Below, piece after piece: positions 171 to 64,000 of a stretch of 64,000 bases of DNA. Source of the DNA: Xestospongia bergquistia (Eukaryota > Porifera > Demospongiae > Haplosclerida > Petrosiidae). The position numbers and the translations under genes were made by a program. The notes under the pieces were generated by a model, which worked only from the letters and a program-made list of their open reading frames with translations, was not told the origin of the DNA and did no database searches. Positions within the stretch are counted from its first letter, which is position 1. Every line of letters begins with the position of its first letter. The DNA lies in NCBI GenBank assembly GCA_963965975.1, contig OZ014411.1, positions 6,743,001 to 6,807,000 of the forward strand, given 5' to 3'.

Positions 171-3100
171 GTCTTGAAATTATAATGATGCTCTATAATC
201 TGAAACGGTATGAAGATTGTCAAAAGCTTTGTGAGAGTTTAAAGCCTACTGATGATTCTGACATTGTGTTGTTGTATAAAGCCAAGAGTATGTACTATCA
301 GTACAACAAAAACTTTCACTAGACAAAAAGCCAACTATCCTGAAAATTTGGCTTATTGGAAATGAACAGGATAGTTAAGCTTGAGGTATCCTGAAGTTTT
401 ACTGTACCTATCCTTGATGCAGTATATGTCATATTTTGGTCAACTAATGATATCAGAAATAATTTGTCACCTATAATGTGTCAAATCTGTCACCTATTAG
501 TAGCTGTAGGATAATGGATAGATAGATCACATTTGGTTAATATATAGATCATGAGGTATGAATATTATTGAATTTAATTTATTACATTAATTAATGCTAA
601 GTTGTGCTATAGTAATAATACATGAAAATTTTGTCTGAGCACAAGTGTGAAAAATACATTATTATTTAAGAGAACAAAGATTTCTTCACTCTATAAGAGG
701 TATAAGTTGTAGCAACCATTCGTCATTGATACAGATCTTTGAATATGAACAACACTGCTTTATTAAGTGAATAGGAACAAAACAATAATAACTTGGATGT
801 TCAAATTTGTCAGCACACCAGATCTGCACAGGCTTACCTATCCTACCAAATTGTTGATGGGGGAGATACCACAAACAAACAGCTATTGGTAAGTTTGAAA
901 CCTCATCTCCAACACTGAAAGAAACAGAACCAAAGTGATGTATCTTTACAGGACGAAAGCTACTGTTGCATTCTAATTGGTTATACAAAGGAGTAGGAAA
1001 TGGTCCAAAGATCGTTTCTCTGATGCTCATATGAGTTTTCCAAATTTCTCCATCATAAACATCAGTTAAGTTTGTACTGTCTTGACGATTAATCCACTGT
1101 CTACATAAGTCGATAAAACCAGGACGTAGAAGCATTTGCTGTATATACATTTTCAAAGGGTAATAGCAGTAAACTTTTAATGGGTAGTAAATACACTTGC
1201 CAGATGAAAAACAAACAGACTTCAACAAAGCAGAACCACATGGTTGACGAAATCTCTTTATAGGATGGTTAGGAAATTGATCGTTTAAGCACCTGCAGTT
1301 CCCTTGTGAAAGTGAACATGAGACATGTTCATGGACAGTAAGACATTCTGGACAAACAAAATAAGATGAAACATTCGACTTGTATTGGTGAACAGTTATT
1401 TTTTTAGCCATATATAATGAAGTTGGAAACTTGTTAAAATGTGAGTTGAATGTTGAATACTTTGCCATAATTGTGAATACTTTCGACATAAACTTAATCA
1501 ATTCATCAATGGCATTCTCAGGAATGTAATGTTTTCCTTGAAGCCTAAGAAGAAACAATACAATCCAAGTAGCTAAAGCAGCAGCCTCAGTAACAAGTTC
1601 ATTTGAATTATGCTCAGGTGGTGTTGGTTGTGAAGGAGCATTGTTGATCTCTTGTTCAATGTCACTGTCATAATCTTCAATATTCTCCCAATGCTCCTCT
1701 GTAAAAACAAATTTTCTTGCAAAAGATAATATTAGAATTCACCTTTCATAATGGAATCAATTCCTTGTGTTTCCTTATGATTCTCTACACTCACAATCCA
1801 ACTATCATCACAAAAGTAAAGTCTCCTGTGCTTTCTGTACGTTTTGATAGTGACATCCTTCTTACAATGAGGGCAGCACATAGTACATGAAGGAGAAGAA
1901 AACTTTGTCTGGACAGAACTTATTTTCACGCATTGAAAGTAACGCCTACTTGCTCCACCCACAAACGTTGAGCACATGCTTCGATAGTAAGTGTGAACTG
2001 TGAAGTATGAACTGTGAAGACAGCTGAAGTTTTAATGAGTCTGCGTTCTGATATTGACATGTCTTCTTTTTTGAACCTGAAATGGAACGGTAAAACGTAC
2101 ACTTTACAAACTAGTTGTAGCTCCAGCTCTGAGGAAGACTTAGAAAATGTACGGACAAATGCCAGAAGAAAGAGACGGCGTATCCAATGTCTGGAGAAAA
2201 TACCACCTATCAATCGCAATAGAAGAAATAAGCAACCTAGCAGTAGTTATAAATCAAAAGGACATAAAAAATCAACAGCGCCAGTTCTAAAGTCTTACCT
2301 ATCATCTACTACACCAACGTTAACACCTTTACCTTCACAAGTTTCCACTGACGGTACGTTATCCAGTTAGTATTATTGTTAGACATTTTGTTAAAATTTG
2401 TTCAGTAGAAAGTACAGACTTTGTTGAGTATTGTATTACATAAATATTGACTATTATAGTTATGCTTACATATATAATTGTTTAAATTTATTTGTGTTTG
2501 TGTAGGCTAAGTGTAAATTCTTTCAGTACTCCATGTATATCCTTTAAGTATTATAAATCCACTAAAACTCTTTGTGTTATTTTATACATAGAAACTGGAG
2601 GAGAGACGAGCTATATTGCAAAAAGTCAAGTTCAGTGATGAATCACATTGTGACCGTTGGCTTGAGGCACTTAAAATTGACACTATGTCCAGTGAAGAAA
2701 GTGACAAAGAAAATGATGAGGATATCTTGGTAGTGAGACCTCTTTCTTGGAGATCTACAGAGTATGAGAAGTTACTGAAAATAATAGATAAGAACCGAGA
2801 AGAATGTCGATCATCACAAGCTAAGAGGCAACTTCTGAAGAGAGTCAGAGGGCCTTTCTCATCTCGAAATTGATCAGATGATATTCCCAGATGGGCTTAA
2901 ACTTGCTTATAAACACATTTATTATAGAAATGTATATTTTATCATATATAACAGTGATGGTTTCATGCAATATTGTTTCAATGATTTAAGGAAATATGAC
3001 AAAAATATGACATATAATTAACTTTACTGTCAAATTTAACATAGCTAGATTAGCCAAGGATATGTCACCTTTCATTGCCATGATAGGTGCTAGCTATTGT

Positions 3101-6100
3101 GCCCTACCCTGCATCAGTAAATCTACAGTTTAGTTGGAACAATCCTTGATACCCAACATGTAAGAACATTTGACCTATACTTAATCAATAATACAGGGAT
3201 AATGATACAGTATTGTTGTGTTTTATTCTAGTGTTTGTAATGAAATGTCAGGAGAGAAAGATCATCCCCACATTTGAATATAAGACTATGATGCGTAGTT
3301 TTTGCAATGACAAAATTGTTGAAGTAATAAGAATCCTAACCAAGATAAAAAATAAGAAGACTGAAGACATTTGGGATTCTGAAGCAACGTATATTTTAGA
3401 CAAGGCACTTGTAGATTGTCTTATATTCAACATTGAGAAGGTTAAAACCTGCTTGCTATGTCATGTTAGATCAGATAAGTTGATACGTAGCCACTATATC
3501 TCAAAATTTATTCTCCAGAGATCTGTGAAAGCAATGGGATATGGTACAGGTGAGAGTGTAGTTATTTTCTCATCCACTGATCAGGCATCTGATTGGGAAC
3601 TAAAATCTGCTGCAAAAATCACATTTTCCATGCTTTGCAAGAATTGTGATGGAGGTGTTCTGAGCAAAGATGAAAAAGCTTTTAAAGAATGCATTTTTGA
3701 TTTAGTGTATGGACATGAAGATTCACATATGCTAGCCCACTCGATTGTTTATGGTACATTTTTTCATAGATTTGTTGCAGGGTTAATTTTCAGGGGTATA
3801 GCACAGTTTTGTAGCAATGTGTGTGCAGAAATAAGTCAGTTTAATCAGGTTCATGTGCTGATGCAGGGTTGTCGAGAGGCATGTCTTCCTACTTCTCATT
3901 TAGCAAGCAGTTTAACTGTTTATATGCTACCACTTCCAGTAGAAATTCCAGTAGAAATCCAAAAGCCTCTTGGTTGGGATACCTTTGTGGGATTAGCAAG
4001 TGCTCCTTATGGAGCATACAGGCTTATTTATCCAGGAGAGCCAGCACTTCCTAAACAACTTTATTGCTTCATGGTCAAAGTCGGATTTATGGTTTTTGTT
4101 GCCCCGCTTGATCAGGATCTTCACGATGAATTGGAAATTATTTGTCCTGGTTGCAAAATTTGCATACCATTCAATGAAGGTGGAGATTGTGTTATGAATA
4201 TTCCAGAGGACAGCAAGAGGGCTAAACAGATACCACAGAAACTTTGGTTAACTTTAACAAGCTGGGCTCAAGAAAAACACAATATTGCAATGTCAGTGGC
4301 ACTATCATTCAGTCCAGCAGAAAATTTCATGACTGGTCATGGGCTAGCTGATGTCGTGAAACGATCAGCTGATGCTATACAGCAAGCCACTAAAGAACCT
4401 GAAGGTTTAGATACAACCTTATCTCTCAAGGACTCACCAGTTGTTGCCAATCTACTACCTCCTGGGTTTGAAATTAACTTTGACAAGCCCATCACTAGTC
4501 CACTGGATGTTGTTAAAGTACCCAATGGTCACAAAGTTATACTTCACAGTTTCTTTACCATAATGTCTGGAGCTACTGGCTACATTCTTTTGGCAAAACT
4601 TGAGAGTAATACTCCAAAAGAACAAAAAGAGAAGTACTCAATTTACTCCAGATTGCTACAGCCATATATTTTGCTGTATGTTGTCCTACCTCGCATCATC
4701 ATGAAAGTTGGATTTCTCATCAATGAACAAGATTGTAGTGTGAAAGGCACACTCCCAGGTTGTCGTGCAGAAATGAGGGATTCTGTTCACCTTGAACAAC
4801 TAATTGAGCGAGTTCCTGAGCTTATTTCTTGCACCCTTCGTGCCAAAGGATTCAGGAGTTTTAAATCACTTCTTTTCTGGAATGAACATCGCAAAGATAT
4901 GATAAGTAGTGAAAGGTATGCAGTTTTTCAAATAATATATGCTATGGCTATAAACCTGCACTAAGAATATCATTAAGCATGATATCACAGAAAACTACCA
5001 TATATTATAAATTGTATGTCATTGCTTTGAATCTTACTTGATACGTTTGAAGTCCTAGAGCCATTAAGGCTTCTACTTTTGTCTAAAAACATCATTAAGG
5101 TAGAAAATCAGTGAATAGCCTAACTGTAACAACCAAATTGTTCTGATTCTAATTCTAGAAAGGCTAACTTGACAATAGATACTATGATAAAATCCCTATA
5201 CATTAAGTTAATCACCTAAGAAGTGATCATTTCTAAAGTTAAGCATGACTGGCATCGTTTAAGTTCTTCATTCAAAAAAATCAGCTACTTACGATACATT
5301 TATTCATAGATATGTTTGAGTTACTAAAATGCTATGGTGCCATTTTATGTTATGTCTATACTTTTGTCATGGAAATTATTATAAATAGATTCAAAACCTA
5401 AAGTATTCAAGAGTTGTTGTACTAACTAGAACTAAAACTACTAAATATTAACAATTCAAATACAGTGTATATTCATATACTTTCTAATTTGGGTTCTTTA
5501 CATTTTTTTATTTTTGATTGATGAATCCAGAACATTTTAAGCCTTAAAACATTTTGCCTTTTTGAAGCACTAAAATTCAAACTAAACTAAATAACTATCG
5601 ATAACTAAAACTGAAACAATATTAATCAGAACTAATGACGTCAAAATAATTTTAGAAAGTGATGCCTAATAACTAATGATTGAGAATTCCTAAGCCATTT
5701 GAATGAGACAAAGAAAAAATGAAAAAATCGAACATTTGACTAATTGTATCTGTGATGCCTAAAAAGTCCAGTACCAAGAAAAAATATCATTGCACCATAT
5801 ACATTGATTCAGCATTGTATTTTAAAGCCGGAAGAACTCAACTCTACAAATAAAGGTTTGACCAGAAGTGGTGACTTTAGAAAGCCATTCAATGCCAATT
5901 ATCTCTGAGTAGCCTTAATCAAATTACCCTTAGTATAGTTCCCAAGGCATTTCCAGTCATCTAATAATTCTCTTTCCATGCACATATCATTTTTACTGTG
6001 TAAATTTTGTGGTAATGTTCCACAACCTATGCATCTCACTGCATGGAGCAGAAAACCTATTTCCACTTTAAACTTTCCATACACATAAGATGAGTTGGAA

Positions 6101-8532: not shown

Positions 8533-29605
<21,073 letters not shown>

Positions 29606-30405
29606 CGTACCAGATGGAAACACTTTTAGGAAAAGATTCGGTTAGTGCTGCTAGAAGACAACAGCTCAACTCTCCCGCCAGTCTACAAATGCCTGATGGG
29701 TGTGGTAATTTTTCTTATGTTTCCACCCCATAATCCCTCAAGACACCCGGAAATTATCGAGTAAGTGTCTACGACAAATAAACTTCTCCTTGGTTATAAA
29801 ATCAATGTATGCATAAAGCAGATAGGAGAACTGATCGAGATCCTTACCGATGCTCCATGCATGATACCAGGAATATGAGGCTAGCTTCAATAATATTTAG
29901 TGGCCTTGCCTCTACCATATGATCACTCATTCCAATGAAAGCTGAAGTCGTAAAATTTAATTTATTATCATGATAAATAATATATATAGCACTTGCAGTC
30001 TAAGCTGTGGTTGGTATTGTAATATTAGTATATCTACATGTAAAAAGCTTACACATGTGACTGTGGGCAAATATGGAGACCTTATCAATATCAATAGCCA
30101 CAACCCACTGTAGTGAGTCAAATACATGTAGTGCACTTGCTACTCTAACATTATGTGTATTAATAAATGAGATCTACCTTTTTCCAGCAGACACCTGCCC
30201 TTGCCAATACTTTGGCTGACACACATACAGTCAATAGATTTCCTTGTCACTCATGTTAGGACTATGATAGAAGACAGTAAATATATTCAATTTGAGTGTT
30301 AATAGTATGTCTTTTGCTCTCTTTAAATACTTCATGTTAATCTGTATACTATTTATGTTTGTGTTGTTAAAACAAATTATTGTTCTATTGTGTTAGTTTA
30401 GTAAC
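29606..30405. promoter_or_regulatory. Divergent promoter region between NCAPD3 and the CARD-Death gene
   Basis: About 800 bp separate the NCAPD3 start codon (minus strand) from the CARD-Death start codon (plus strand), so both genes must be driven from here. An identical-looking copy occupies 32531-33330. No TATA box or specific factor site is assigned. Confidence 0.6.
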
Positions 30406-30825
30406 ATGAATCTTGATGGATTATACAAAGCTGCTCTACAGAAAAACACTACTAAATTTATGGATGCATGTCTTGATCCAAAGAAATTATCAGAAGATCT
30501 TTTTGAAAAAGATATTATTCCTAGTCATCTCTATAATAAAATTATTGATGTCAATTGTAGCTCTGGAACAAGAGGTCGACTACAAAGCCTTTTTGAATAT
30601 CTTCTTCAAGCTGTAGAAAATAAAGGAGTATTTATAAAATTTCTTCAAATTCTTAAAGATGAAGGAGGAACTAATGCTCCAGCTTTAGCTAAATGCCTTG
30701 AAGACAGTTTTGAAGACCTAGTTACAAAAAGTGAGATAGAAGTTAACTTTAGTGATTTTACTGTTAATTGAAATGCCTGACTGTTTCCCACTGATTACCC
30801 AATTTTAATCATTGATGTTAGAAAA

Positions 30826-30915
<90 letters not shown>

Positions 30916-31334
30916 CGTACAAATTAAATTAATAAATGCTCTTAATTGTATTCACAGGGATAGAGGAAAACAAAGTGCGACTGTTACAACCATATGATGA
31001 CCATGTTCTTACTGAAATCACTGTAATCACAGAAGGGGTTTCATTTGATTTATTGTCTTCCCACTTTGACATGACATTTGGAGATGTTGCTAAAATCAAC
31101 GATGAAATTAAGGAACATGAAGAAAACAAAATGCTTGCTTTGTTGCGTAAATGGAGATGTCGGAAAAAAGAGAATAGTTCTTATCTTGCATTAATAAAAC
31201 CATTTGTCAAAATGAATAGCATTGCAATAGTTGAAGTTATTGTTGAGCATATCAAAAACCATAGCATAAATGAAACCAAACAGTTGCAACTCCCATTCAC
31301 ACCTGAAGATACACCTGACAAATACAGTAGATAG
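30406..31334 (+). CDS. CARD + Death domain protein (truncated duplicate, 233 aa)
   Basis: Exons 30406-30730 and 30958-31334, joined by a strong GTGAGA donor and CACAG acceptor that keep phase. Residues about 1-100 are a CARD (KKLSEDLFEKDIIPSHLYNK, then RLQSLFEYLLQAVENKG). Residues about 118-205 are a Death domain (FDMTFGDVAKINDEI, then MLALLRKW). The frame crosses the duplication breakpoint and stops two codons later (DKYSR-stop). Both death-fold domains are therefore complete, while everything C-terminal is lost. The domain order equals that of the adaptor CRADD/RAIDD, but this is a separate origin. The intron holds a GT microsatellite (about 30832-30914). Whether it is expressed is unknown. 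Confidence 0.75.
30832..30914. repeat. GT microsatellite, left copy
   Basis: About 41 GT units in the intron between the CARD and Death exons. The right copy is about 42 bases longer. Confidence 0.95.
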
Positions 31335-32530: not shown

Positions 32531-33330
32531 CGTACCAGATGGAAACACTTTTAGGAAAAGATTCGGTTAGTGCTGCTAGAAGACAACAGCTCAACTCTCC
32601 CGCCAGTCTACAAATGCCTGATGGGTGTGGTAATTTTTCTTATGTTTCCACCCCATAATCCCTCAAGACACCCGGAAATTATCGAGTAAGTGTCTACGAC
32701 AAATAAACTTCTCCTTGGTTATAAAATCAATGTATGCATAAAGCAGATAGGAGAACTGATCGAGATCCTTACCGATGCTCCATGCATGATACCAGGAATA
32801 TGAGGCTAGCTTCAATAATATTTAGTGGCCTTGCCTCTACCATATGATCACTCATTCCAATGAAAGCTGAAGTCGTAAAATTTAATTTATTATCATGATA
32901 AATAATATATATAGCACTTGCAGTCTAAGCTGTGGTTGGTATTGTAATATTAGTATATCTACATGTAAAAAGCTTACACATGTGACTGTGGGCAAATATG
33001 GAGACCTTATCAATATCAATAGCCACAACCCACTGTAGTGAGTCAAATACATGTAGTGCACTTGCTACTCTAACATTATGTGTATTAATAAATGAGATCT
33101 ACCTTTTTCCAGCAGACACCTGCCCTTGCCAATACTTTGGCTGACACACATACAGTCAATAGATTTCCTTGTCACTCATGTTAGGACTATGATAGAAGAC
33201 AGTAAATATATTCAATTTGAGTGTTAATAGTATGTCTTTTGCTCTCTTTAAATACTTCATGTTAATCTGTATACTATTTATGTTTGTGTTGTTAAAACAA
33301 ATTATTGTTCTATTGTGTTAGTTTAGTAAC

Positions 33331-37534
<4,204 letters not shown>

Positions 37535-38245: not shown

Positions 38246-48923
<10,678 letters not shown>

Positions 48924-49264: not shown

Positions 49265-49605
49265 TCAAACACAGTCTTCATTACAATGAATTATCGCATC
49301 ATCTTCCATCTTGCTGTCTTCGTCAACTGTCCCAAAGGCTTCTTTTTCCTTTTGTCTGGCTCTCTCTTCTTGATCATCGCTATCTTTTAGTGGAATCTTC
49401 TCTGATAAACTAGCTAATGCTGTAGATTGTGTAATATAGCGATCTTCCATAGAAGGGTCACTTTTTTCTTCACCAGAATAAGCCTTTTGTATATTCAATT
49501 TAATAGCTTTAAAAGATAGGTAATTGTCATTACAGATATATTGCTGTACATACTATCATTATGAGAAGATCTACTTTTCAAGGTTGATTGACTGTCTTTA
49601 GATGT
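49265..49605 (-). CDS. Cytoplasmic tail exons of the adhesion GPCR
   Basis: Exons 49605-49554 and about 49506-49265 join in phase (THSHND-type linker into IKLNIQKAYSGEEK). The tail is rich in Ser, Glu, Asp and Lys (PLKDSDDQEERARQKEKE) and ends EDCV. The D-x-V end could act as a class III PDZ ligand, by inference only. Confidence 0.75.
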
Positions 49606-52600
49606 CTAGTTAAGAAAAACAAAGTACAATATGTACTACATATCATAAAAATGAATATTTATACTTACAAACTGATAAGATCTTGTTTTCATAGTTGCTC
49701 TGCCCTTTATTCGTTTGAGTTGAGGTGAGACCTTAGACCACACCTTTTCACTTCGTACCACATGAAAGAAAAAGATTGCAGCACCCTAGTAATGTAATAT
49801 TGTCTGTAAGTATATAGAAACAGAATGGTGTGTTTTCACTTGTAGACTGTTCAATATGGTAAATATCCAAGCAAAAACAGTTGTGTTTTCATTTACTGCC
49901 AACAGTCCAAACAACCAAGTTAGACCCAAAAGTGGTAACAGAATGATGGATGCTTTAAGTACACCTCTGTATAATGAAGAGATAATTAATTTAGAATATC
50001 CACTGCTTTTGTTATAATTTTTGATCAAAAAGATGATCATGACAAGAATTTCTTACAGAGCTATTTGTCGTGTGCTTCCTTTTTGTTCATGATGTGATCG
50101 ACGAGATAGTTGGTTACTTCTTGTTCTCCATATACGAACTAAAGCCAATACTAAGAATACAATATTGATCTATACAATAAAGAAAAATGAGTGATCATTA
50201 ATTGATATATTAACGAACTATGATGATAATAATCATTGGAGCTACAAAGGCCCAAATAACTCCATTATCCACTGATAGCCAGCAACTATTGTAATAAGGT
50301 AACAGAATTCTCAGAGTTGTTATATGGGATTCTTAAGCTTACTATAACAAGTCTCCTTCTTCATTTCTAACACCATAACCGCTGTAACCAGCAGCAAGAC
50401 CAATTACAACAGGCAAAACAGGAGTGACTATAGAAACATAAATTCTATCAACAGATACATATAAATGTATATACTGTAAATAATTATACTAATGATATCT
50501 GATTTCCTTTATCCCTTATTAACACTTACGCCATCCCAGTAACAAAAATAACCACCATCTCTTAGCCATTCTTGAAAATACTATTATTAACATTAGATAT
50601 AACATTACACCCTCGCATAACATCCAACAGAATGAAGCAAGAAAGAAATAGTGAAGAAGTGCAGCTACAAAAGCACATCCTCCCTAAAATGGAACTATTT
50701 CATTTTCAGTATGCAGTATATGATGTTCTACCTGGCTTCCTCTAGCTGTCTCTACACCAACAGCAAAGATAAAGTATGCACATAATAATGAAATTGCTAG
50801 ATTTAGATGCACAAAGAAGTGAACTGAAGTAAAAAGAACTTTCCTATAAGAAGAACATAAGTATATGAAATGATGACATAAGGATATTGCCACATTAATG
50901 TCTGTGTGTTATTAGTAATTTCTTAAATGTGAAACAATTATTCTTACCCTTGAATAGCAAAGAATATTACTGTGATGACAAGGCAGGCAATAGAGATAGC
51001 ACAACCAATGTATGAGACCACCTTGAGTGCTGTAAGTTCTCCTGGACTGGTTTGCTAAATGAAGTTTAAAAAAAGATCAATACATGTATGACATATTGTC
51101 CTCATTGTAAAGACAATTTTATAGTTAACTGTAATCATGAAATCAAACTTACATGAACAGATCCTGATACATCAACAAGCACAGCAAAAGCAGTCAAATG
51201 GAAACTCTCACAGCTAACCAGTGTTTGCCCATTTGAGTCAGTGAAATTTCGTACTGTTTCTACACCATCATTAGACCATCCTTGTATACTATAGATACAT
51301 GATGATTAAAGTACAAACATTATATAGTAGCCTACTTTTCATCCCAGTACACACAAATGTATCTTGAGACATCTGTAGACTGTATAAAAAGGAAACGTTC
51401 TATAATACTGGACCATAGGAACAGCATGCAACCATGGCCATTCACTATTGCATGACTCAAATTAATATTCCTTTATATTTTCTTAGCAAATCAATAATTT
51501 TTGAATTCATAACTCACATTGTCAATACCAAATGTCAGGTTTATTGGGTTTTTAATGTTGCCAGTCAATTGAGAGACTTGACCAGACCAAAGAAGAGATG
51601 CAGGACGAGTATTATTGCTGCTATTAGGAAAATGATGTGTATACTTGAGCAACAAAAATATACCTTCTATTTCTTTGTGCTGTTTCAAGAAAATATTCTA
51701 AATTTTGGAAGAGAATACTAACTACTGGTACTCTGCCTGTATCTGTAACATGTATATTGTTTATAATATATGATGTTATTGATCAATATCTTTACTTTTT
51801 GCTCTTTCAGATAACAACTCATTAGGAATGCTGACAGAAGCTGTCCTACCAGTAAACAATGTGTTATCAAGATCACCAGGTTGTGGAAATGTCAGAGCTG
51901 AACCTCTGGATACAGCATATCGCTTGGCTCTGATAGCTACACATGATAAATTGTCAAATGGCTATACATGCTGTTATTCATTTACATTGTATTTAATACT
52001 AGAGCTTCTAGCTGTATTCTATAACTTTATAACATTTCCTATCACATGCATAAAGCTAACAATATAGACTGTATGTTTTATGAATTATGTGTTGATTTCA
52101 AAATACTAACCTATGTTTTGTCTTCTTTTAACAGTGTCATTTCTGGCCAGTGCAAAATACAGGCCATACCTCTCAGCATTTTGCAGTAAAACATTACTTC
52201 CAAGAGCAGTATTTGTTGAAGACTGTACAACAAGAATAGCAACATTTATAATCATATACAAAATACTAGTTGACATTAACTTACACTCTGTAGTTGATTC
52301 CAACCAATAGAATGATTATTGTTCAATAGATTGTTAAATATATCCAATATGTTCTGCAAATAACTGATAAAATTAACTCAACAACACTTAAAGGCATACC
52401 AATGAATCAACAAGAGAGTCAGTTATATTAGCAGTATTATTATCCAAGCTATCAAAAAGTAAATCTATAGCACCATTAACAATATAGTTAGTGGCATTTA
52501 AAGAAGCTGGTAAAAGAGATACTTGGTTTGGTAATGTTTGTGCAGTGGTGTCTGCCAGATTAGAAATAACTGGGGCAATTTGAGTCAGCTGTACTTCAAT

Positions 52601-55600
52601 ACTCTCATTAGCAGAGAAGATATCATTAGCCTAATGGTACAAATGCAATGTTAGACATTGCACTCCTTCAATATTACCTGGTTTAGGTAATTCTGGTATT
52701 CAACTGGTAAGCAACTTAGTACATTAGGATCACCCCATTCATTCACACCAATGCAAGTACGTGTAGCAGACCCTATAACCATAAATATTGTATATAGCAG
52801 TAATAATAAGTTGTTGTTCCAATACCAAGTGTATCAGCTTGTCCAGGACAAGGTTGTCTATCAGTTACACCTACAGGTGTATTAGTCCATAATATTCCCC
52901 AGGTATCATCAGCACCAAAGGAACAGCCAGAGAACACTATGTGTAGAAAGCAATAACTACCGAGATATTGGTTTCATTTAGCTAACATGGTAAAGTTTGA
53001 CAAGCTGTTTGATTTTGATCAGGATTATAGACATTTGGGCAATTATCCTAACATAAACATAACAAATGCAACATTAACTACAGTGTTGATATAGTATCAG
53101 ACCTTAATGCAATAGGTTTCTGTGCTGTTGTTAGTACAAGAGTTCAATATATTTTCAGGATAAGAGTCTCCATCACTGTCTAATGTACATAAGACACCAT
53201 CACCAACAAAAGGAGATTGACACTGATCAAAAAGAAAGGTTGAGTAAAAAATGAAAACCATATGAACAGATTAGGACACATTCAAATAGCTTGTTGTTCT
53301 ACCTGGCAAGTGTTGTTAACACAATCACATGGTCTGGTAGCACCTCCTGAACACAAAATAACAAAGTTCTCTTGTTGTTGAGTCATTTGACAAGGACAAG
53401 ATTCTGAAAAAAGTAAAATGGATGTCATATTATAACACAGTTACAAACCTGCAGTTTGATAAACTTGAATGCCACTGTTTTGTGGTATAGCAGTAAAACC
53501 AGCAAATGTTGTTGATCTACTGAGATCTGTTGACACTTGCATTAATGCCTCAGTAGTCGACTCATTTAGAGTTGGCAAAGCCACATGGAACTGTACAAGA
53601 ACACTTGACAGATACAGTGACTGTATATTGACAATATCATAGGGTATGTTAAGATCATCTAGAAAGGCTCTCATCTGAGCAGGAAAAGAACTTAATAACT
53701 GAAAAACATTGTAACTACTATTAAATAGTTCAGTTTTATTGTCAAATACATGCATATATTATACCAATTAAATTTATTATAACTTATTAAAATATCTTAC
53801 ATTATTTTCTAAGCTTGTCTGCTTGCTCCGTATTTGTTCAATACTATCAACATCCAAAGTGACCCATATAGTAGCTGAATTGCCAGCATCTTGTTTTAAC
53901 AGACATTTAGTAAAGTCCACAGGTCCCCATCTGGCTACACTATAGCACTGACGTGATGCAACCAATCCAGAACGAAACTGATTGCCAGCTTGTGTACAAG
54001 GTACTGTTACTAGAGTACTGGCAACTGTTGTTTCCCATAGTATACCATTAGAAAAGTCTTCAGGACATGCTAAGATAAAAAAATAACATACACATTATTA
54101 GCAAAATGAGAATATACCGTAAATTCTATAGAATGCTAATACTTTAGTTATAGTCAAAAAGACTACTTCCACATTTAAATTATGATCACAAATACTTTGC
54201 ACATACATAAATAATTGATAAACATACTTCTAACACAGGGAGTACATTGAGGTGGAGGCAAAGTTGAAACTTCACGGTCAAAATCGTTGTTATTCACTCT
54301 CGCATAAGCTACTCCATTATATTGATTACAGCATTGTTCAATTGAGTTAGCAGTTGCAATATATTGACCACATGGTGTTGCCTCACGGTAGCAAGCAAAT
54401 GCTAAAAAAGCAAAACACATAAATTTCATATTGGTACTTCATTTTAAATATTGTTATAGATAACGGTACTAGCAGTTAGCTTTAAGGTTAGGCTATAAAT
54501 GATTATGACTATTGACTATAGTAATTTTAGCAACCACGTAAAAATTGCTAACTTACAAAAACTTAGTTTAATGAATAATGATAAAATGTCAAAAATAATT
54601 AAATCTGACTAGTTCAAATACAATGAGCTGATTATCGTACTACTCATTAATCAAAAGTACAGGTATTAATGTTAATAACATGACAACAATAGTTCACATA
54701 CCTTCAGTTATAGTCACATTAATCTGTTGTGATAATATAACTTCATTATCAACTAACAGACTACAAGTGTAGCTACCAGAGTCATCTAAAGTGACTCCGT
54801 GTAAAAAAAAGACATTATTGTATTGTTCCGGGTAGAAACATGTTTCAGTTAAACTTTCTGTATTACAAACACCAGCTGTAATAGTTCTCCCATTGTGTTG
54901 CCAATTAATAACAAAGTTTCCTTGGGAAGGCCGGCAGCTGAGAAATATATTATTACCAACAAACGCATTAGTTACAGCAGAAGTTCGTAGCAGTTGTGGA
55001 ACTTAAAAGAAATGACAAGTTAGTGCTAATATTGTTGCTTTTACAATTCATGAATTATAATATCTCTAATATCCTATAGGACATACCTTCCACAGTAACA
55101 TTGACAGAATCATTAACATAACAGTTGCCTCCCACACATTCATCTACTGTATTGGTAAATGAGAATACTAATATTAACTTGTCCTTTGAATCTATGTTCT
55201 ATAAGTAGTTATAATGCTATATACTATTAAGATATTTACTCAATATCTATTAATAGTACACAATATGTAAGATGAAACTTAGTTCCTTAGTAACATACTT
55301 GTTAATCCAGCATAGTAGATTCCTGCATGTTGTGGACGTATTTTGTTTATTGAGTATCGATATTGATAACAAAAAATAGACTCATCATTATTTCCACAGT
55401 TTTGATTGACTTTAAAGATGGAGTTAGATCCATTGTCAGCCATAAAATATCCTTGAAGGCTAGACAATCCATTAGAGTTACCATCACTATCTTTTGCAGC
55501 TAAAAAGATCATGGTAACATTGTCTCCTAAGAAAGCAGTTACAGTCTTGTTTGAGTCAGTACGTACAAATGGATTTTCTAAAGAAAAGAATAAAACAATT

Positions 55601-58600
55601 ATACAATACTCATTACTCAGGCTAAGAAAGGACATCGCAATTGTTTTTGAATAGCTCCAGAATGAATAAATTTTATTGTCAAAAAAAGATTCAGCTCAAA
55701 TGCAGGAGCCTTCAGTGGATGAATACACAGTAATGACAAGATATGTATATATGCACACAGGAGAACAAAGAACGAGTAAGTAAATGAACAAAGGTAGGAA
55801 ACAAATCAATAAATAAATCTATTGAATTAGTAGATGAAAAGATGTTAAATGGAATTTTCAAAATAATTAAATAAATAACATACACTGTGTATATATATTC
55901 TACTATTACTATTTCTTCACCCAATGATGAAGGCCACTGTATATGAGTCAAAACATTGGTTTTAATAATTAAATTTAACAGGACCTATTCAAAAGCAAGA
56001 ACATTCATTGTTCTGTCTTACCTGGAGTGAGAATGAAATTTGAGAAGACACCACTAACAGTTGATCGACATTGATATCTTCCACTGATATTTTCATTTAC
56101 ATCAGCTATCAATCTAGACTGATACACATTAAGATGTTCAGTAGAGAGATCGCCATTATAGTATAAATAGTCATAATCCAGAACTACTTCATTTCCAGGA
56201 CTTGCAAAGAATTCTGCTTTAAAGATGGGATTATGATCACCTTGAACAACAGTACATAAAGCTTCAAAGCTCTGTTCATATCCTATCTCACGTTTATGAT
56301 CTGATAAAAATGTGTTGACAATGGAATTATTTGTAATAACTTGGGTATTGCTGTCTGTAATAGTAATTACATCTATGAAAAAAAAGGAATAGTACTAAAA
56401 TAACTATACTATATTGTAATTAATTACTAGAACACAAATATATTTTACAGGTAATGAATTGTTGTGGTGAACAATCGAACACGACGCAAATAAAAGTGAT
56501 GAAGCTGTTGTACAAAATTAACATACATTATGACAATTAAGTCATATGTGATAATACAATTCACTCAAACAACACATTACTTAGTCATGTTCATTTCGAC
56601 TTATTACTGTTACAATTCTGCCTTGTACCTTATGCTTTATTAATATATTTGATTACAAGCACACAAGTTTTTTTTACAGATAATGCATTGTTATGGTGAA
56701 CAGCTGAACAAGACACGTTTAACAAATAAAATGATAAAGTTGTCTTAAAAATTAATAGTATCATTTATTACAAAATATATTATTACTCACTTAACAATTT
56801 AAGTTACATATGTAAAAGTACAATTCTATTCACTAAAACAACATAATTATTGATTAGTCATGATCATTACAACTTATTACTGTTATAATTTTACCTTGTT
56901 CTATATTTAAAATCAAATTTTTTGAATTAATAAATAATGATGGATTAGAACCATTCCGAAAACCACAAACAAACCGAAGCCTCCCACTATCACTGTCAAG
57001 AGAATATTCAAGGTTTGAGAAAGTAGCTGATGTGAGGTTGAAGCTGACATTGTGATCCAAATTTTGTGGAGAGAACACAAATGTTGGTTCATTGTTGAGA
57101 GGTAGATATTCCTCATAATTACTGTGAAAAGATTGAGTATATTACAATTTTAAGGATTTTAATGTATTTCAAAGCTTATATGTAGTACAAATCTTAAATT
57201 TACAACTATCATTAGTCAGTAAGAGAATGATATCAACAATAAATAATGGAATTGAAATAGAAGTGTATGTAAGATGTGATAGTTCATGTAATAACTATAT
57301 ACACTCACAGAACTCCCCAGTTTACAGGAGCACTTGTATCATTTGGTGTACAAAACATATTAACTATTCTACCAAACAAAGCATACACAGGAGTAGAAAC
57401 TGATGTGAACATTGGAACTATTATAATATTATAAGGTCAAAGGTCAGCACTATCAGAAAAGATAACTTACTTATTGGAAGAACTTGGAGAGTAAAACTGA
57501 ACTCAGTAAAATTTCTGACAGCTGCATAATAAAAAAAGATATTATTTATAGCATACCTACTCTATAAAATACCTTGAAAATTGAAGTCAGCATCATCAGA
57601 AGTACTGACAGTAAATGTGTGATTATAACTATATATGTTGGAGTCTGATGTTATATTTTTGAAGACAGTGTAGGCTGGTAAATTCTTAGTATTAGGTGTC
57701 ACACTCAGACTAAGCAGTAATCCATATCCAGTGTTGCCATAGCCTTTTGATTCATAAGCATACTGTCCTGTTAGTGTTAAGTTAACACCAATAGGTGCTT
57801 CAATGTATGGAGGAGAGAGGATTTTCCAGTAGGGATCATCTGCAATAAAGAAAGGAGAGGATCTTAAATGGCATAATTATGAATTAATATACATAATATT
57901 GTCATAATATTGCTGTATTCATCATCTGATGGATAGATCTCAAACAACGGTCTTAGTAAATAACCAAAATTAACTCTTTCAACTATTTGTTTATTTGTGA
58001 GCTACATACTGAGTCTCACCTAATACTATTAAGACTCTAAAGTCCAAACCACTTTGATCAGATCTACAAATGTAATAACCAGTCTTATTCCCATTGAGAT
58101 TAGATATATTTAACTGAGTGTAATAATTTGCGGTCATAACTGAGAGAAAGGGATCTGAACTAATAACTTCATCAGTAATGTTAGTTGGTAGAAACTGAAC
58201 CTCCTCAGTCTGCCACCTCAGATTATTATGTCCCTCTTCTCCATAACATTGCAATGACAGGAAATGACTTGGAGTAAATTGGTTGATTATAGCTGACTCA
58301 AATATTTCAAAGCCATTATTCCACAAAGATACAGGACCTGTGTACAAGTAAATAGAGAGTATAAAATCAAACTATCAACAGACAAATCTCTTCATTAATG
58401 GGATATAAACTCTAAACTCTTAAATTAAGCTCAGATAACACAGCAATATAGAGCAATTGTTATAATAAAGTTTACATAGCATACCATAAAAATATACTAT
58501 TATCATTATAGTATATTATTTTGTAACAACTTACGTGAAACAGTGACTACAGTCACTTGTTGCTCATTTATTAATTCAAACCCACCAGGACTGTATACTC

Positions 58601-61600
58601 CACAGACAAAGGTAGCAATACCATCAGGAGCGGACAGAAGTTTGACTGTATGGTTTAGACCCTCTGGCTCAAACTGATATGAAGGATACGTTTCATAAAG
58701 TGCAGTTGAATTGAGGAGTTGCCAATAAATGACAGCTGATGGATCACTTGGTGTACATGTAACACTGATTAGTCCGTTCTCAAAATCTCTAGACCTCTTA
58801 ACAATCAATGTAGATGATATATTAACAGACGGTGCTGTGAAAATAAATTAAGAAAACAAGACAAAAGAACCACACTTCAAAACAACAAACATATTGTTGT
58901 TTCATTGGTTGGTTAGTTGCATGACCAAGTTGTTATCATTCATTCTCCTGTTAATAGTATCATACACAAATACTCTAATGTAACTTTCACTATCACTAAC
59001 AAATGAAACTGAAAACAATTACAACTGCTATGATAATATTTTAATCACATAGCAAAACAATCAACTTACTACACAATATACACAGAAGTAGGCTTGCCCA
59101 ATCAATAACATACCTGTTATGACAGACACATTGATCTGTTTTAATAGTATCACTTCATTATTGACTAATAAACTGCAAGTGTAAATACCAGTGTCACTAG
59201 GAAAGGCAGCAGCTAATCTGAGATGAGTATTATAGGGTGAAGGATACAGACAAGATAATAGAGCATTTCGTTTTTGAATATTTTCACAATCATATCCTGG
59301 TATCATTACACCATTATGTTGCCATGATATAATAAAGTTCCCAGCAGAAGGAACACAAGATAATAGAAGTGGGTTACCAACATATACTGTCAAGGTAGTG
59401 TGTGATGGAATCAGCTGAGGTACTGTATAGAGGAAGTAACACCAACTATTAGCACTATATCATGATTTACCTTCGACTGATACAACTACAGAATCATTTA
59501 CATAGCAGTCAGGAGTTATTATCTCACAATCACCTAAAGAATGAGAATATTCCCATCACTTGTTTCAGAAAGTTAATCATAAGGTTTTACCTAAAACTCT
59601 GGCATAGTAGACTCCTGCATGTTGTGGTCGTATTTTGTTGATTGAGTATCGATATTGATAACAAATAGACTCATCTTTATTTCCACAGTTTTGATTGACA
59701 TTGAATGTAGAGTTAGATCCATTATCAGCCATAAAATATCCTTGAAGGCTAGACAATACATTAGAGTTACCAATACTATTTCTTGCAGCTAAAAAGATCA
59801 TGGTAACATTGTCTCCTAAGAAAGCAGTTACATTTTTATTTGAGTCAGTACGTACAAATGGATTTTCTAAAGAAAACAACATAAAATATAAAGTTTATGT
59901 TTGAAAATTCAAATACCAGCTGCAATGATAAATGTTGAGAAGAGACCACTGACAGTAGATTGACAATTGTATTTTCCACTGATACTTGAAGTAACATTGG
60001 CTATCAGAAATGACTGGTAAGGGTTACTTTGCAATGTATATAAATATATACTATAGTTAGTAATAACAATTTCATTTCCAGGATTATCAAAGAACTCCAC
60101 TTTAAAGAGAGGATTATGGTCACCTTGAACAGTAGTACATCTAACTCTGAAATTCTTCATATTCACTACTTCACGTTTCGATATAAAATTAAATCTGTTT
60201 ACTATAGAATTGTTTCTTAATCTAACATTACCAAGCACATTCGACACAGTGATTGGGTCTACAGAAAAGAAGATAAGCATTGATTTCTCACAGGAAAGTA
60301 ACTGTTAATTATAAGAACTACATTCAATTTGTACCTGTCTCTATATTCAGTGTAATATAACTAGGGCTGGTAAAAGATGACCTAGACCCATTTCGAAAGC
60401 CACAAACAAATGAAAGCTGACTATAACTACCACTATCAATATCACGATAGTACTCAGGGTCTGAAAATGTTGCAGTTGTGAGGTTGAAGTCAATGTTGTG
60501 ATCCAAATTCGCTGGAGAGAACACAAATGTTGGTTCATTGTTGAGAGGTTCATAATTCTCCTCCTCATTACTGTGAAATGGAAAACACAATGTACCACAA
60601 TAAAAAGAAATTAAATTTTGAAAGAAAAAACTCTAAAGTATAGTATATTTTCATATATTCCATTAAAATAAAAGTTAAAAACTAGTAACATCACAGATAA
60701 TCATAAATTAAATAACAGTTAACCATCAAATGTTAATGTTAACTCTAAAATCAATACTTTAGACACTTACGAGATTCCCCAGTTTACAGGAGCTCTTGTA
60801 TCATTTGGTGTACAGAACAAATTAACAGTTCTACCCAACAAAGCATACACGGGAGTGGAAACTGAAGTGAACACAGGAACTATAGCATAAATGAGACAAC
60901 ATTGATTGTACTGAATTGTCATTAAAAACATACTTATAGCTTGCACTCGAACAGTCTCAGATAAAGTCAAATTGAACATGTCAGCATTAGCTATGGGGTT
61001 TTTCATTTAAATAGTTATTGATTGATATTATAGGCATACCTTGAAATACAAAGTCAGCTGTATCAGATGTACTAATTGTAAAGGAATAGTTGTATGTGTA
61101 TCCATTATCAACTGAGAGGATATTAGTAAAAACACTATAATCTGGTAATTGTGGATTTGTTGGTATTACATCGAGGTCAAAGGTGAAGCCAACTCCCAGA
61201 TTGCCATACCCTTCTGAGGCATATGCATATTGTGCTTTAATAGTAAAGTTAGTGCCGATAGGTATCTCAATATACGAAGGAGCAAGGACATCCCAGTATG
61301 GATCATCTAAAGAAGACATGTTTGAAGGACAGTCGGATGAATAAATAGAGAGACAGATAAATGTACTGCTTTAAACTTACCAAATGTAGTGAAGACACGA
61401 ACTTCTTCTCCACTTTCATATGACTTACAGATGTAATAACCAGTTTTGTTTGCATCAAATTCAGCATAATTCAAAGTTGAATCATGACTATATCCAATCA
61501 CTGTCAGGGACTGTGTTGAATTAAGTGTGACATTATCAGACAAAGTTGACACATCCTCCGTCTGCCATTGTAGGTCACCATGACCATCTTCACTAAAACA

Positions 61601-64000
61601 TCGTAGGGATAGAAAAGGTAGTCCATCATTAAAAAATATGCGAAAAGAATTGATGATTGAGTTTGGAAGTAGCTCATTATTGTTATTCCATACAGACACA
61701 GGTCCTAAAGAGTTAAAAACATCAAGCCACACTATTAAAGTATAAACTTTATTAAATGTCCTTTATTTCATATTCAAAGTACATTTTATGCTTATCAAGT
61801 CAATCATCACAATTAGCTCTTTATAGTGAAATAACAACTGGAGAGTTATTACAAGAGATAAATTGGATGATTTATATAGCCTGTGAATACTACAAAGCTA
61901 GGGAATACAACCATTATCGTATCACTAATATAAGTAATGGTAGACTGTCTAATGTGACAATTTATTTACGCATTGTTACAGTATAAATAGCAAGTACATA
62001 ACTGTCTGGAAAACATAATCTCTTACTTGTTACAGTCACTAAAGTAATTCTTTGTTCATTTAATAGCCTTGGCATACCACCTGGATTAAGTAGACCACAT
62101 ACAATAATGATAATGCCATAGGGAGGAGATAAAATCTTGACAGTATGGTTGCGTCCAATAGGTTCATATTGATAGGATGGATAAATATCCCATAATGGTA
62201 CATTGCTAAGTTGTTGCCAGTGAATGAAGGCTGTAGGATCACTAGGCATACAAGAGACATTGACTAGACCATCATTATAATCTGCTGCTCTTCTAACCAC
62301 AAGATCAGTTAAAAGAGTAATAGATGGAACTGTATTTTAAGAAAATAACATTTAATTAGAATAATATGAATTGCACAAAGAGCAGTTGCTTTTCTAGTTC
62401 CTACCACACCACATATCATTATGCCTATAGTTGATGTAAATCATCAAATAAATCACAACCAGGAACTTTTTCTCTTATTACAGACTCCAGCCATATCAGA
62501 AATGATAAATTTCCAAATTCTATTCTTTACTACTTCTGTAGTTAATGTATTCATTCACTATTATATACAAGTAAAAAACTAACTGCTATACAATGTACTC
62601 TAGTATTGTTCACTGACCTGTTACAGTCAAATTAAAAAGTCCTATACATTGTGATATCATTTCTGAATCTGAACTGCCAGAGCCCTCAGAGAAACCAAAG
62701 CAAATCTCATACAAACCAGCAGCTAAGACAGGAACTGCTGAATATGTAATGTAAAATGTAGTCATATCAAGTGTTTGTATTGTCGGTACTATTACATTCC
62801 TAGTTACATTGGTGTTGTTGATAGATATAAATTGAACAGTTGTAGGATCAACTGCTTGCTCAGTGAGGAGCACTGCAGTTATGTTAACTGGACTACCAAC
62901 AGAAATCTCGAGACTATTGCCATCAGGATAATGCACAGAAGAAATATCTGTGGTGAATGGAAATAAATAGTAATTGTTCATGTGTCACTCACTATAATTA
63001 GTCTATGAGCATTAATATTAATAAAAATATAGATTAATTGTTGCAGCTGCATGTGAGAATTAGCTATGATCTAACACTATAGTGACATAACTTGATTACA
63101 TCTAGTGACAATAGTAATGACTACTAATGGCTATACTGCACATAAGCTATATTGGTAACATAGAGGTATTGCAATTTGCAGCTATCATAACCTTCTAAGT
63201 GGTGACAATATTGTCAAAACAACATTGCAACAACCTCAGGTCGTGTGGTTACAATAAGGGTAGGTGAAGCTTTGTAATAACTACTAGAGACTGACACCAC
63301 TAGGTGTTTAAAGGGAGTGTAAGTGACACCAGATGGTTATTTAATTGTCTTGGTCATGTGCATAATTATCATACCTTGATAAGTTGCCAAGTATACTCGA
63401 GTAGAATACCCATCTAAAGATATACACGTATATACTGCTGCATATTGGGATGTAAGTCCACCTGGAAAGCTTGCAACAATTACACTGTTTGCTTCTTGAT
63501 AGAGTGGGACAAAGGATGCCATTGAGTTCTGTCTTAAGGGATCGATGTATAGCATTGGATGAGGGCCATGGGGAGTGGCTGAACAGGTAATGTTAAATGG
63601 ATTGGTTGTGTTATGAACTATGTATAAGTTTCTGATTATATTAATTGTAGTTCCTGGGTAGGTTTCAACTGCAGAAATCATTGTAGCTATGAAAAAAAAT
63701 TAACCAAACAATCACATTAAATTGTTGAATGAGTTAGTTATTTTTGTATGCAAAATGCATATAAATTATCTATAATATATATATATATATAATTACATAC
63801 TTTGACCCCATGTCACATTTAAAGGAAAAGCACAATCACTCAATCCTACGATTAGAACTGCTTGCCCAATTAGAGGACTATCTGGACATGACACTATTGT
63901 GATTGTTTTATTGAATTCACCAATCGTTTGACTAATGATGATACATGCATGTCCTTGTGAAAAAGTATTAGGCCCACAGTAGTTATCAGTACTTAGGAAA
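49265..64000 (-). CDS. Large adhesion GPCR with Ig-rich ectodomain (5' end beyond window)
   Basis: About 48 exons on the minus strand. N to C: a partial exon (64000-63801); Ig-like exons (63686-63375, 62947-62618); two homologous ten-exon blocks (62329-59114 and 58834-54712); a Cys-rich exon (54401-54228); an HRM-like exon (54069-53801, QCYSVARWGPVDFTKC); a SEA-like exon (53698-53449); Cys-rich and TSP3-like exons (53403-52987, DSDGDSYPEN and DNCPNVYNPDQ); a second HRM (52936-52678, RTCIGVNEWGDPNVLSC); GAIN (52630-51518); GPS (51379-51153, ICVYWDE and FHLTAFAVL); seven helices (51054-49669); and the tail (49605-49265). TM6-7 read LLGLTWLFGLLAV and IFTILNSLQ|GAAIFFFHVV, typical of family B2. 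Ig + SEA + GAIN recalls ADGRF5, but the HRM pair and block duplication do not, so no orthologue is claimed. Confidence 0.88.
51153..51379 (-). CDS. GPS autoproteolysis motif exons of the adhesion GPCR
   Basis: Exons 51379-51336 and 51288-51153 join with AA plus T. They encode C-VYWDE, a Trp-Ser segment, then SCESFHLTAFAVLV. The conserved Cys and Trp and the HL/T cleavage triad are all present, so self-cleavage before Thr is expected. The next exon (51054-50948) starts the first membrane helix. Confidence 0.85.
54712..58834 (-). repeat. Ig-rich exon block, C-terminal copy
   Basis: Exons 58834-58535, 58337-58020, 57839-57573, 57521-57471, 57417-57309, 57121-56895, 56372-56022, 55577-55299, 55143-55087 and 55001-54712. 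Each has a counterpart, in the same order, in 59114-62329. Examples: GPVSLWNN against GPVSVWNN, NKTGYYIC in both, and SLQGYFMADNGSN in both. Longer than the other copy because two introns are expanded (55578-56021 and 56373-56894). Confidence 0.88.
59114..62329 (-). repeat. Ig-rich exon block, N-terminal copy
   Basis: Exons 62329-62027, 61704-61381, 61306-61041, 60990-60934, 60879-60771, 60570-60335, 60258-59917, 59866-59591, 59533-59471 and 59422-59114. Ig hallmarks include GYYICKSYESG and GIYTCSLL, plus many N-glycosylation sites. Together with 54712-58834 this is an internal duplication of about ten exons. Confidence 0.88.

Follow-up and report, generated by a model that had tools for sequence, protein, structure and literature searches.

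A window of 64,000 nucleotides from the sponge Xestospongia bergquistia (bases 6,743,001–6,807,000 of the plus strand of contig C1, which is 28.2 Mb long in a genome of 146 Mb and 21 contigs) carries a transposable element of the CACTA (En/Spm) superfamily inside a coding exon. We read the locus, with a probability of roughly two in three, as an allele disrupted by a young, non-autonomous insertion at which any splicing would be leaky. An earlier, sequence-only reading of the window had proposed more: that the element can be removed as an intron, pairing a donor in the host exon with the AG of its own terminal repeat, and that its family may create introns as it inserts.

The element and its host exon

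The anatomy described in the sequence-only reading is sound. The element, 2,917 bp from CACTAGA to TCTAGTG, has imperfect inverted repeats that agree at 20 of their first 26 positions, and it is flanked by TTT on both sides (Table 1). When the element and one TTT were deleted in silico, the host codons continued as a single open frame to the end of the exon, as that reading had claimed; read into the element as it stands, the host frame meets a stop two codons in (CAC TAG). The range first given for the feature, 288–3236, is bounded by real features but mixes the start of the would-be intron with the end of the target site duplication.

The host exon begins at 171, directly after TTTCTTTTAG. 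Its boundary and phase are the same in the paralogue L058, as judged by eye. The upstream host exon, in L039, ends in phase 1 with CAG/GTAAAT (position 9384 of L039; the slash marks the splice junction), and the intervening intron is 287 nt. A search of the same genome with the host protein gave 16 places. Two are the window's own pieces, L058 and L064 make up one paralogue, and L072, which is without sequence at the insertion site, was left out, leaving 12 usable paralogues. These are 19–45% identical to L058, so that the pairing of residues between them is approximate. All 12 have an open frame over the insertion site, from which it follows that the site was exonic before the element arrived. 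The local match itself covers the site in ten; the placement of the other two, L065 and L071, depends on an extended-frame alignment, because their local matches begin at query residues 126 and 100, past the site. On this evidence we reject an intron that predates the element, and the sequence-only reading, which had named an intron here in relatives lacking the element as the finding that would count against it, meets no such intron among these same-genome paralogues.

We regard the host as a multicopy animal gene, with the element in an internal coding exon. Its protein is left without a named function, since a sequence search of the PDB with L058 gave a best E value of only 0.41, a PDB fold search with the L058 model gave nothing at E ≤ 0.001, and a Pfam scan of the host exon found no family.

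A family of CACTA elements

A DNA search of the sponge's own genome with the element returned 40 scored candidates and, from these, at least 65 matching pieces. Of 17 element places that were fetched, ten had both ends; with the window copy this makes 11 complete copies. The remaining seven places (L050–L056) were diverged or partial and were left out of the scoring of duplications. Every complete copy has exact CACTAG...CTAGTG ends and its own 3-bp duplication (TTT, TGT, TAA, ACC, AAG, GCA, ATC, ATC, ACA, AAG and TCT), which puts the element far beyond chance. The terminal TAG that the sequence-only reading expected at every CACTA end is present at 22 of 22 ends of the complete copies.

Genome-wide pattern searches recovered much the same set. 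With at most one mismatch, the 3'-end pattern matched 11 places, all of them complete copies. Allowing up to three raised this to 21, but a reversed control then gave 14, and most of the weaker matches are therefore noise. The 5'-end pattern gave 11 matches at up to three mismatches, against none in the control: ten complete copies and the truncated L053. The other complete copy, L048, is too diverged at this end to match.

Different inner parts are missing from different copies. Three element frames in the window were scanned against Pfam, and Transposase_21 was found in none of them; the 350-aa frame matched no Pfam family. The core missing from the 350-aa frame of the window copy is retained in the sister copy L042, where it matches Transposase_21 (PF02992) above the cut-off (E 8.1e-13). 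Since ends, duplication and transposase agree, we assign the family to the CACTA (En/Spm) superfamily. That closely similar copies sit at separate places, with clean duplications, suggests indirectly that it has been mobile.

The window insertion is young. In comparison with seven long sister copies it has private substitutions at 4 of 289 columns at the 5' end and 3 of 690 at the 3' end, or 7 in 979; its final 701 bases show 7 to 16 differences from those sisters. Dating by decay of the host exon was tried and dropped, being uninformative at less than 1% private change.

Among the other ten complete copies, none was recognised inside a host-gene exon, as judged from about 1 kb of unannotated flank on each side, in which several junctions cross unidentified short open frames. 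Retroelement-like sequence surrounds three sister copies: L043 (1068–4370), where we take it to be gag-like; L046 (1016–4213), where it resembles reverse transcriptase (Pfam E 0.023, below the cut-off); and L044 (1040–4333), where it looks RNase H-like by eye only. The window copy, L043 and L046 lie in the same orientation relative to the coding or retroelement-like frame, so that the same end would give the TAG, but these are too few for the agreement to carry meaning. Seven matches to the element's 3' part, at 68–69% identity, fall inside about 243 kb (G000:C1:26448183-26690928), and the 3'-end motif occurs four times at 135-bp spacing, with 2–3 mismatches, at G000:C9:1763595-1764022, possibly a satellite formed from the end of a related element.

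Candidate splice sites

Both proposed splice sites exist where the sequence-only reading placed them. A GTATGT lies 29 nt before the element, with its GT at 288–289 and an A as the last exon base (287). The element ends in the T-rich TGTTGTGTTTTATTCTAG/TG, in which the TAG at 3229–3231 offers a possible 3' splice site. With 287 joined to 3232 the frame continues and there is no stop at the junction, giving 797 rather than 805 residues in the translated stretch, a net loss of eight, again as claimed.

Splice sites were scored against a local training set: 19 donors and 14 acceptors picked by eye in a tandemly repeated receptor gene (22 exon frames, at 49–64 kb of the window), plus one donor and one acceptor from the host exon, making 20 and 15; with so few sites the scores are fragile. 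The 288 donor scored lower than 20 of 20 local donors and the element TAG lower than 15 of 15 local acceptors, under each of three pseudocount settings. In the window as a whole, 7% of all GTs score at least as high as the 288 donor and 22% of all AGs at least as high as the element TAG. Two competing donors score above the one at 288 (4.67). The upstream donor in L039 (8.27) is in phase with the element TAG, and its join to 3232 is open, with a net loss of 47 residues; the donor at 208 scores 6.86.

The GTATGT at 288 was not brought by the element. It consists of ordinary Ser-Met-Tyr codons, and the element-free paralogue L058 has GTATGT at the homologous codons. How often an insertion would find such a donor was counted over 23,569 insertion points taken from 13 related coding exons. 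For 600 of these (2.5%) a donor as good and in frame lies within 29 nt, for 1,485 (6.3%) within 65 nt, and for 1,867 (7.9%) one in any frame lies within 29 nt. The coincidence at 288 is thus only mildly unusual. In none of the other ten complete copies do the 29 nt before the element hold an equally good donor in phase with the TAG; in L045 such a donor lies at 32 nt, but no open frame crosses there. The suggestion that the family creates introns on insertion is not supported, and in the window the donor was pre-existing coding sequence.

The 287-to-3232 join would delete residues S39–N47 of the exon's protein and insert one Met. K38, which is retained, is identical in 11 of 12 paralogues. Among the deleted residues, Y44 is identical in nine of 12, and Y41 is Tyr in six and Phe in six. 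In conservation the heptapeptide KSMYYQY stands 25th among 601 seven-residue windows; the nine deleted residues taken together are less striking, at 78th of 599. In an AlphaFold2 model of L058 (mean pLDDT 70) the deleted segment lies in a helix at residues 62–93, in blocks of pLDDT 75–90. The splice would probably shorten this conserved helix, which makes full function afterwards doubtful.

Table 1. Features of the element, its insertion site and the host exon, in window positions
Feature	Position	Strand	Remarks
Host exon, 5' part	171..316	+	Acceptor AG at 169–170, phase 1; first full codon at 173
Competing donor ACG/GTATGA	208..213	+	Scores above the 288 donor; out of frame with 3232
Candidate cryptic donor AGA/GTATGT	288..293	+	Host codons S-M-Y; GT at 288–289; 29 nt upstream of the element
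Target site duplication, 5' copy (TTT)	314..316	+	Sequence read and copy comparison
CACTA (En/Spm) element, internally deleted	317..3233	.	2,917 bp; ends CACTAGA...TCTAGTG; imperfect terminal inverted repeats
Open frame of 350 aa within the element	689..1738	-	Two transposase parts fused over an internal deletion; Transposase_21 core removed
Second, short open frame in the element	2592..2870	+	Found in sister copies too; no Pfam family at cut-off
TAG of the 3' terminal repeat, candidate 3' splice site	3229..3231	+	Exon would restart at 3232; in 11/11 complete copies
Target site duplication, 3' copy (TTT)	3234..3236	+	Sequence read and copy comparison
Host exon, 3' part	3237..4915	+	559 full codons; donor AAG/GTATGC, GT at 4916

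Weighing the explanations

The explanation that we favour is that a non-autonomous, recently moved CACTA (En/Spm) element inserted by cut-and-paste at the TTT of 314–316 and now mainly disables the allele, presumably through truncation at CAC TAG. In transcripts that cross the element, its T-rich end with the TAG at 3229–3231 could be used as a 3' splice site of the generic CACTA kind. The in-frame donors open to it would be the authentic upstream CAG/GTAAAT, at a cost of 47 residues, and the weak cryptic site at 288, at a cost of eight; the better-scoring donor at 208 would shift the frame. Any rescue is therefore expected to be leaky and its protein short of conserved helix residues. The TAG would then be a by-product of the terminal sequence required by the transposase rather than a device for making introns.

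That the element is instead removed as a new intron at 288–3231, with a host donor and an element acceptor, and that the protein still works with eight residues fewer, we consider unlikely. It would be a GT...AG intron whose junction keeps the frame free of stops, and the unspliced host frame ends within the element. Several observations weigh against disruption as we read it, and those on the donor words also favour the new intron. The element TAG falls under the lowest training acceptor by less than 0.1, and the scores themselves rest on sites read by eye rather than derived from RNA. An A precedes the GT in three of the 20 local donors, two of them being A/GTATGT. The word AGTATGT occurs 34 times on the two strands of the window against 16 for its reversed word, and GGTATGT (12 against 14 reversed) and GGTAAGT (12 against 11) show no such excess, so that A/GTATGT is perhaps a better local donor than it was scored. 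The rest of the examined host exon is intact over 562 aa, as in a functional gene, though at this age that is little informative, and disruption is as unproven as splicing. On the other side, the 288 donor is the weakest of all compared, the donors at 208 and upstream score better, the residues lost belong to the conserved helix (note the rank of KSMYYQY), and the insertion is too young for an intact frame to prove function. An intron in use at these sites is therefore not supported: its donor lies below every local one, its acceptor just below every local one, it would delete conserved residues, and a better donor upstream is also in frame.

That upstream donor could also act by itself, skipping the natural acceptor and joining 3232, so that the exon is truncated in frame. 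Its phase equals that of the natural exon start and its score is well above that at 288, but the natural acceptor at 169–170 is closer and, like the other 14 training acceptors, outscores the element TAG; the stretch that would be lost aligns along most of the 12 paralogues. We think this outcome unlikely. A start supplied by the element, with transcription from its 3' end and an N-terminally shortened protein, seems very improbable. An open frame at 3192–4964 does leave the element interior for the host exon, with its first ATG at 3240, but the product would lack everything encoded upstream. An assembly join or cloning artefact in place of a real insertion can practically be set aside: the target duplication is base-exact, and these ends recur in ten other copies at other places, where each copy has a 3-bp duplication of its own. 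In short, we see an ordinary recent CACTA insertion, most probably disrupting its allele, for which an escape by splicing is plausible but weak.

Other genes in the window

Also encoded in the window, by Pfam scan, are a segment of a secretin-family receptor, domains of the hormone-receptor and immunoglobulin kinds and, weakly, a CARD; by these the DNA is judged to come from an animal. The receptor gene that supplied the training sites is large and lies on the minus strand (49268–63699); its tandemly repeated exons accompany immunoglobulin and hormone-receptor domains and a secretin-family seven-transmembrane segment, and phase-1 boundaries, read by eye, are common to most of the repeated exons. 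A gene in tandem duplicate (30397–31331 and 33322–34943) carries the weak match to CARD (E 0.0009, which does not reach Pfam's cut-off), and the minus-strand frames next to it are repeated as well. Long GA/TC simple repeats at 25573–26100 and 39275–39826 give rise to spurious open frames.

Relation to known systems

An exonic dSpm in the maize allele bz-m13 is reportedly spliced from RNA by way of an acceptor in the element end. The CACTA superfamily is characterised by CACTA/TAGTG ends and a 3-bp target duplication (PMC4158355); a terminal TAG is generic to CACTA ends, since such termini define the superfamily. That CACTA ends can make an intron is already established in maize, where the A2 gene has been reported to carry a dSpm-derived intron (Menssen et al. 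1990, EMBO J, cited in PMC4219821 and PMC8195511). The sponge element resembles maize En/Spm and the A2 dSpm in its CACTA...TAGTG ends, its terminal splice sites (here candidates) and its position within a gene. It differs in that the novel intron is published there and inferred here, in an animal genome and a different family.

Introners of DNA-transposon origin bring one splice site with them, and the second is taken from the neighbouring exon or the target duplication; many of their families show such duplications together with inverted repeats (Gozashti et al. 2022, PMC9860276). That study counted 27,563 introner-derived introns in families of 5 to over 2,000 copies, with median lengths of 30–654 nt. 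The element shares with them the target duplication, the inverted repeats, and one carried and one recruited candidate splice site; as with introners, the exonic insertion is absent from relatives, here 12 of 12 usable same-genome paralogues. Unlike them it is a single 2.9-kb element, seen here in one host-gene exon, its splicing is conjectural, and it would bring a net loss of residues. Animal TRC elements such as SmTRC1 belong to the same superfamily and share the Transposase_21 domain, but a CCC core has been suggested for them and 2-bp repeats reported (PMC1636069), whereas the family described here has CACTA ends and 3-bp duplications. The available parts of PMC2613891 and PMC3488318 add nothing on transposon-end splice sites. 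A literature search for an animal CACTA intron returned no such title; its coverage was partial, and we make no claim of absence.

The new details of the sponge locus are its two in-frame donors, the origin of the GTATGT in pre-existing codons, and the cut that splicing would make in a conserved helix. One tentative idea, which we hold to be doubtful, is that the CACTA end works as a ready-made 3' splice site in living animals: the element would be spliced from the coding exon with two in-frame donors competing for one TAG, so that a new intron and an alternative isoform would arise together. If the RNA join is real, what was found in maize, CACTA ends in use as splice sites, would be extended to an animal, and a young insertion whose paralogues are uninterrupted would make the first step of intron birth observable.

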